A program made the position numbers and the translations under genes. A DNA stretch of 33,313 nt from a virus: the IMG/VR virus record IMGVR_UViG_3300042448_001390, positions 1 to 33,313 of that record. One strand, given 5' to 3'. Positions within the stretch are counted from its first letter, which is position 1, and every line of letters begins with the position of its first letter. The notes beneath the pieces were generated by a model that ran no database searches, was not told the origin of the DNA, and was given only the letters and a program-made list of their open reading frames with translations. This document shows positions 323-1,713 of this stretch, one piece after another.

Positions 323-1713
<1,391 letters not shown>

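Follow-up and report, generated by a model that had tools for sequence, protein, structure and literature searches.

A putative contingency switch at a poly-G tract in a dual-coding C5-cytosine methyltransferase gene of phages

In the phasevarions of Campylobacter, Helicobacter, Neisseria and Haemophilus, poly-G or other repeat tracts are located in mod genes. These phase-variable methyltransferases contain a homopolymer or repeat within the methyltransferase coding sequence, such that a change in its length shifts the frame and the full enzyme is lost. The locus described here resembles them in these respects and differs in two others. Its carriers are phages, and the off frame, which in the bacterial enzymes hits a stop, is here another conserved open reading frame (ORF), denoted Alt, so that the off phases encode full-length hybrids.

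A second point of comparison is the ShiLan domain, a mobile hidden HNH endonuclease insert that is encoded in the third frame and shows a patchy distribution in actinobacteriophage methylases (PMC11855218). Alt shares with ShiLan the property of being a hidden ORF in a phage methylase (PMC11855218) but it overlaps the body of the methyltransferase, is read in the +1 frame, has no match among HNH models and is found repeatedly in phages of great diversity. Given the lack of an HNH match in Pfam, NCBIfam and PDB, and given that Alt overlaps conserved methyltransferase motifs with no insert, we rejected the interpretation of Alt as a ShiLan-type hidden HNH insertion. No prior account of this overlap or switch was found in the open-access literature searched. 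Phase-variable methyltransferases and the ShiLan hidden HNH appear to be the nearest known systems, and a switch over the dual-coding gene itself seems to be without a prior description among the sources covered.

The window, i.e., the whole stretch of DNA that was analysed, is a 33,313-base virus record that carries a large terminase and an integrase and, at its left edge, the end of a DnaB-like helicase. All features of the locus are on the plus strand. The first ORF (940–1713, 257 aa, with ATG at 940 or 943) matches PF00145 in Pfam (4e-31, residues 8–179) and phrog_363 (1e-60). Its translation combines motif I (FAGSGGG, ~967–987), the catalytic PCQ (1174–1182), ENS/ENV, PHxRDR and a C-terminal GN(G/A)QVP in one ORF, as is typical of C5-cytosine DNA methyltransferases. 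Wholly nested within it, in the +1 frame, is Alt (953–1705, 250 aa), which matches the profiles phrog_1008 (2e-18) and phrog_26627 (4e-11). The N-terminal half of Alt (Alt-N, 953–1195) is open, weakly conserved and predicted to be mostly disordered. The C-terminal region (Alt-C, 1238–1660) is conserved in A1 and A3, coincides with frozen wobble positions of the methyltransferase, and has the pattern CGxKW..SWKT.QCSL..WPxWG.M..G....WPTP....NPxWxEWLMGWxxGWTDLKPLEMDK. Outside this locus, a stretch of ~25 bases, AACGGATGCGAAGCAACGGCCGGGCC, is present in two near-identical copies (418–443 and 2327–2352), in or between small ORFs of the window.

The proposed slippage switch is a G10 tract at 1198–1207. 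An earlier, sequence-only reading had placed ten Gs in the middle of the overlap, read in both frames, and the tract indeed lies inside both ORFs: in the methyltransferase frame, it is read as GGG GGG GGG G|CT, i.e., Gly87–89 and the first base of Ala90, and in the +1 frame as (CA)G GGG GGG GGG. The same reading held that loss of one G would join the N-terminal half of the methyltransferase to Alt-C and that gain of one G would make the reverse join, and the frame arithmetic agrees. With G9, a methyltransferase-N::Alt-C ORF of 254 aa is formed and translation from the Alt start ends after 90 aa; with G11, an Alt-N::methyltransferase-C ORF of 253 aa is formed and translation from the methyltransferase start ends after 95 aa. 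The tract is the only run of eight or more in the window. A G10 or C10 anywhere in the window appears in 26 of 100 dinucleotide shuffles and is, accordingly, not rare per se, and a run of at least 10 arises in 4.6% of the trials in which the window gene has its own codons permuted.

We gathered viral relatives from IMG/VR, 80 by methyltransferase sequence alone and 3 by Alt, and in nearly all of these 83, the +1 frame is open over almost the whole gene. The start codons of the two frames are close neighbours in the window (940–955, with ATG 940/943 for the methyltransferase and ATG 953 for Alt). The usual arrangement in the relatives is NTGAATGAG, with two starts 4 nt apart, the Alt ATG second, and TGA or TAA just upstream in the Alt frame; one of the start motifs ATGAATGAG, GTGAATGAG, TTGAATGAG or TTAAATGAG is present in 60 of 67 distinct relatives. 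In Escherichia coli, AUGUG and GUGUG cause ambiguous initiation, and two start codons a few bases apart can start two overlapping ORFs (PMC9841429). The motif and the 4-nt spacing found here are different from these, and dual initiation at this motif is a prediction from the sequence.

It could be argued that Alt is never a separate protein and that its frame is entered only through slippage, either ribosomal or transcriptional, in polypeptides begun at the methyltransferase start, the functional product being a methyltransferase-N::Alt-C protein made at a set ratio and the G tract being one slippery site. The conservation of Alt-C and not of Alt-N would fit such a scheme, as would a natural methyltransferase-N::Alt-C fusion without a homopolymer in a Bryobacterales MAG (L239, 2665–3402). 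Nevertheless, we consider this explanation unlikely. Alt-N is itself free of stops, with 0 observed against 63 expected when synonymous codons are permuted within each gene, a control that preserves the protein and the codon usage, in 47 genes dereplicated at 90% identity, nearly all of which had been retrieved with the methyltransferase sequence and not with Alt. Furthermore, Alt has a conserved ATG of its own, 4 nt after the methyltransferase start and with a stop just upstream, and most relatives have no slippery run.

As in the 83 viral relatives, Alt in the same +1 phase over the methyltransferase was identified in 76 bacterial or prophage loci and in 27 loci found with phrog_1008. Among these 76 genome loci and 27 profile-found loci, there is no free-standing Alt, which is seen within methyltransferase genes only, and none of 14 control genomes contains it. 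A +1 ORF matching the Alt profile is present in all 16 isolate phages (1e-10 to 1e-84), including phages of Mycobacterium, Streptococcus, Paenibacillus, Bacteroides, Nodularia, Synechococcus and Vibrio. One Roseovarius chromosome assembly (OX638333.1) encompasses five methyltransferase/Alt loci (L274–L278).

Existing annotations treat the two frames inconsistently. The phrog_1008 profile, which is matched by all 113 members of A3, is labelled ‘DNA methyltransferase’, though these members are translations of the other frame. The nested ORF has been noted by phage annotators at least twice, as SITARA_60 (‘g59 internal gene’) of Paenibacillus phage Sitara and as gp51 of Streptococcus phage P0095, annotated as a second ‘DNA methyltransferase’ inside the first. 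Both are the same +1-frame nested ORF and match the Alt profile; neither annotation gives a function or mentions switching. For Pseudomonas phage phPA-G (L087, 2001–2729), the Alt frame alone is annotated, as a hypothetical protein, and the methyltransferase is missed. In Mycobacterium phage Llama (L085), compared with SG4 (L290), one inserted T, at a position outside any homopolymer, swaps the frames in mid-gene. Of the Llama genes 74 and 75, both ‘DNA methylase’, one is methyltransferase-N and the other is methyltransferase-C, which Alt-N now reads into in frame, and Alt-C runs on in the third frame; the same split annotation is found in several sister phages.

At the site of the tract, most relatives found by methyltransferase sequence have no run (GCAGGAAAAGGCGCAGGA, AGKGAG), and the isolate phages examined also lack the tract, so that the overlap is independent of it. 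The sequence-only reading had counted the use of non-homopolymeric codons by relatives against a switch. This is true of most relatives, but the polymorphism in the tract-bearing ones stands. A scan of viral contigs for the PCQD..A-G9 context yielded at least 120 contigs, and G runs of 9–17 are present at the same site in at least 121 viral contigs. We defined phase as the register of the downstream methyltransferase relative to the upstream methyltransferase frame, the −1 register being methyltransferase-N::Alt-C and the +1 register Alt-N::methyltransferase-C. Among the matches listed, 118 contigs were scoreable, with 80 in phase, 23 in the −1 register and 15 in the +1 register (p = 3e-14 for the in-phase excess over one third), as read from metagenome assemblies, in which the consensus of a G run can be off by a base. 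In most of the −1 and +1 copies, both downstream frames remain open, with medians of about 190–210 codons (L108, L089 and L169 are exceptions), which is consistent with reversible switching, unlike the pattern of decaying genes.

Contingency loci are recognised by a tract length that differs between near-identical genomes, and this is what is found in four pairs of contigs: L103/L203 (G14/G15; 5,928 bp, 0 mismatches), L113/L188 (G17/G10; 7,385 bp, 0 mismatches), L143/L207 (G15/G13; 8,418 bp, 1 mismatch) and L091/L207 (G15/G13; 9,820 bp, 1 mismatch). Every indel in these pairs falls inside the tract. The other runs of six or more in the paired stretches are unchanged, including a second G10 (L143, 8337–8346) that is constant between contigs whose methyltransferase tract varied. 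Hence the earlier suggestion of slippage and phase variation, which could yield a hybrid product or switch the methyltransferase off, gains support from relatives that vary in tract length and display all three phases. For the window's phage itself, no close relative emerged, the nearest one with the same tract being L002 (63% identical, also G10), so that its tract polymorphism is predicted by homology.

In a tree of 139 methyltransferases, with the tract columns retained, the tract requires 17 changes, at least five of these on well-supported branches. Because most relatives are without the tract, this distribution indicates that the dual-coding gene is older and that the tract was added to it on repeated occasions. 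At the same site, G9 in the Alt-N::methyltransferase-C register is also seen in a Gallionella MAG (L259, 2721–3704, on a 414-kb contig) and in IMG/VR record 2511231094 (L173, 995–1600 on the strand of its match). Further runs might be additional switch points in the same dual-coding gene, namely G12 at motif I in L039 and L053 and C10–14 ahead of the target-recognition region in L064, L065 and L074.

Another explanation accepts Alt as real and takes the G tract as mere Gly-Gly-Gly encoded in GGG codons, with the length differences caused by sequencing or assembly error or by passing mutations. Short-read assembly is known to be error-prone in G-rich runs, the tract is missing from most relatives, and the presence of a G10 in 33 kb is nothing unusual. 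However, we regard this explanation as quite unlikely in view of pairs of contigs that are identical over 7–10 kb apart from 2 or 7 Gs in the tract and in which the second G10 is constant. With 0–1 other differences in these pairs, sequencing error was rejected as the sole cause of their length differences. Moreover, in a set of 70 genes comprising the window and relatives picked without regard to tracts, G or C runs of nine or more are present in 8 genes against 0.99 expected under codon permutation, an excess of ~8-fold that involves several sites of the gene. The tract was gained or lost at least five times, and selection on the reading frame is visible in the in-phase excess among the matches listed. 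A chance G run of this length would be unremarkable in 33 kb, but its recurrence, position and polymorphism are not.

The case for Alt as a gene comes from stops and from silent sites. Under the codon permutation described above, the +1 frame of 71 distinct genes should contain 420 stops but contains 85, mostly at the two ends beyond Alt; the +2 frame should contain 880 and contains 1004, i.e., it shows no depletion. Across the 47 dereplicated genes, four regions inside Alt contain 0 stops vs 63, 94, 33 and 49 expected (~240 in total). The methyltransferase wobble bases, which are silent in that frame and fall at the second positions of Alt codons, are frozen at codons ~110–149 and 200–229, where they encode P/G/W/E residues of Alt; invariant wobbles include those of A136 (GCC, 43/43), G139 (GGG, 47/47), V215 (GTG, 29/29), A216 (GCC, 35/35) and V219 (GTG, 40/40). 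In most bins, and in nearly all of those under 90%, fourfold divergence is below that of neighbouring genes at equal protein identity. In the AT-rich phages (Nodularia, Streptococcus, Paenibacillus), the open length of Alt is far above that obtained by codon permutation (p <= 0.001). The second frame is, then, open to a greater extent than codon composition would predict and constrained at positions that are silent in the first frame, two features expected of an overlapping gene under selection in both frames, and by this footprint, Alt is under protein-coding selection. That Alt is no protein and that its frame stays open as a side effect of methyltransferase conservation, base composition or a constraint on the RNA might be suggested by its never being seen apart from the methyltransferase and by its lack of a confident fold but is highly improbable, given that codon permutation preserving protein and codon usage yields no open frame, in AT-rich phages as well, and that wobble freezing is position-specific.

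Searches with Pfam, NCBIfam, PADLOC, PDB sequence, AlphaFold2 and Foldseek returned nothing usable for Alt. The AlphaFold2 models show no confident fold, with a pTM of 0.25 for the full length and 0.23 for the C half, and a pLDDT of about 50 for Alt-N. The possibility that Alt is a nuclease lethal without the methyltransferase is weakly disfavoured because methyltransferase-N::Alt-C is at least as common as the other off register.

We believe that the locus is probably a dual-coding gene with a contingency switch at the G tract. A single mRNA would carry two adjacent start codons, one for the C5 methyltransferase and the other for Alt, which would be read from nearly the same DNA with an offset of one base. 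The methyltransferase probably methylates phage DNA against host restriction. The G tract would slip during replication, and by analogy with its relatives, the window's phage may switch as well. In phase (G10 here), both full proteins would be encoded. With one G fewer, the methyltransferase start would give a fusion in which methyltransferase-N, carrying the SAM-binding and PCQ motifs, is followed by the conserved Alt-C, and no complete methyltransferase would be made. With one G more, the Alt start would give Alt-N::methyltransferase-C, and the complete methyltransferase and Alt-C would both be lost; methylation would be expected to cease in either off phase. The phage population would keep a reversible mix of methylating, non-methylating and hybrid-coding genomes, from which it might benefit by setting escape from restriction against a cost. 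A more specific proposition, for and against which we see about equal odds, is that of a three-position switch, in which a homopolymer lies in two overlapping genes and slippage makes two selected proteins trade their C-terminal halves, giving a different full-length product in each phase, on an old, widespread and unrecognised overlapping gene of phage C5 methyltransferases.

In bacteria and DNA phages, long overlaps with selection acting on both frames are rare and a matter of dispute. The methyltransferase/Alt overlap recurs, with a strong statistical footprint, in phages and prophages of very different hosts, yet annotations usually show just one of its frames, with the consequence that one frame is misnamed by gene callers and PHROGs in many genomes. 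Why Alt is confined to the inside of a methyltransferase becomes a testable question. To this overlap the tract adds a candidate phage-encoded phase switch on DNA methylation, which could give phages heritable on, off and hybrid control and would allow a phage population to hedge its bets by containing both modified and unmodified genomes.
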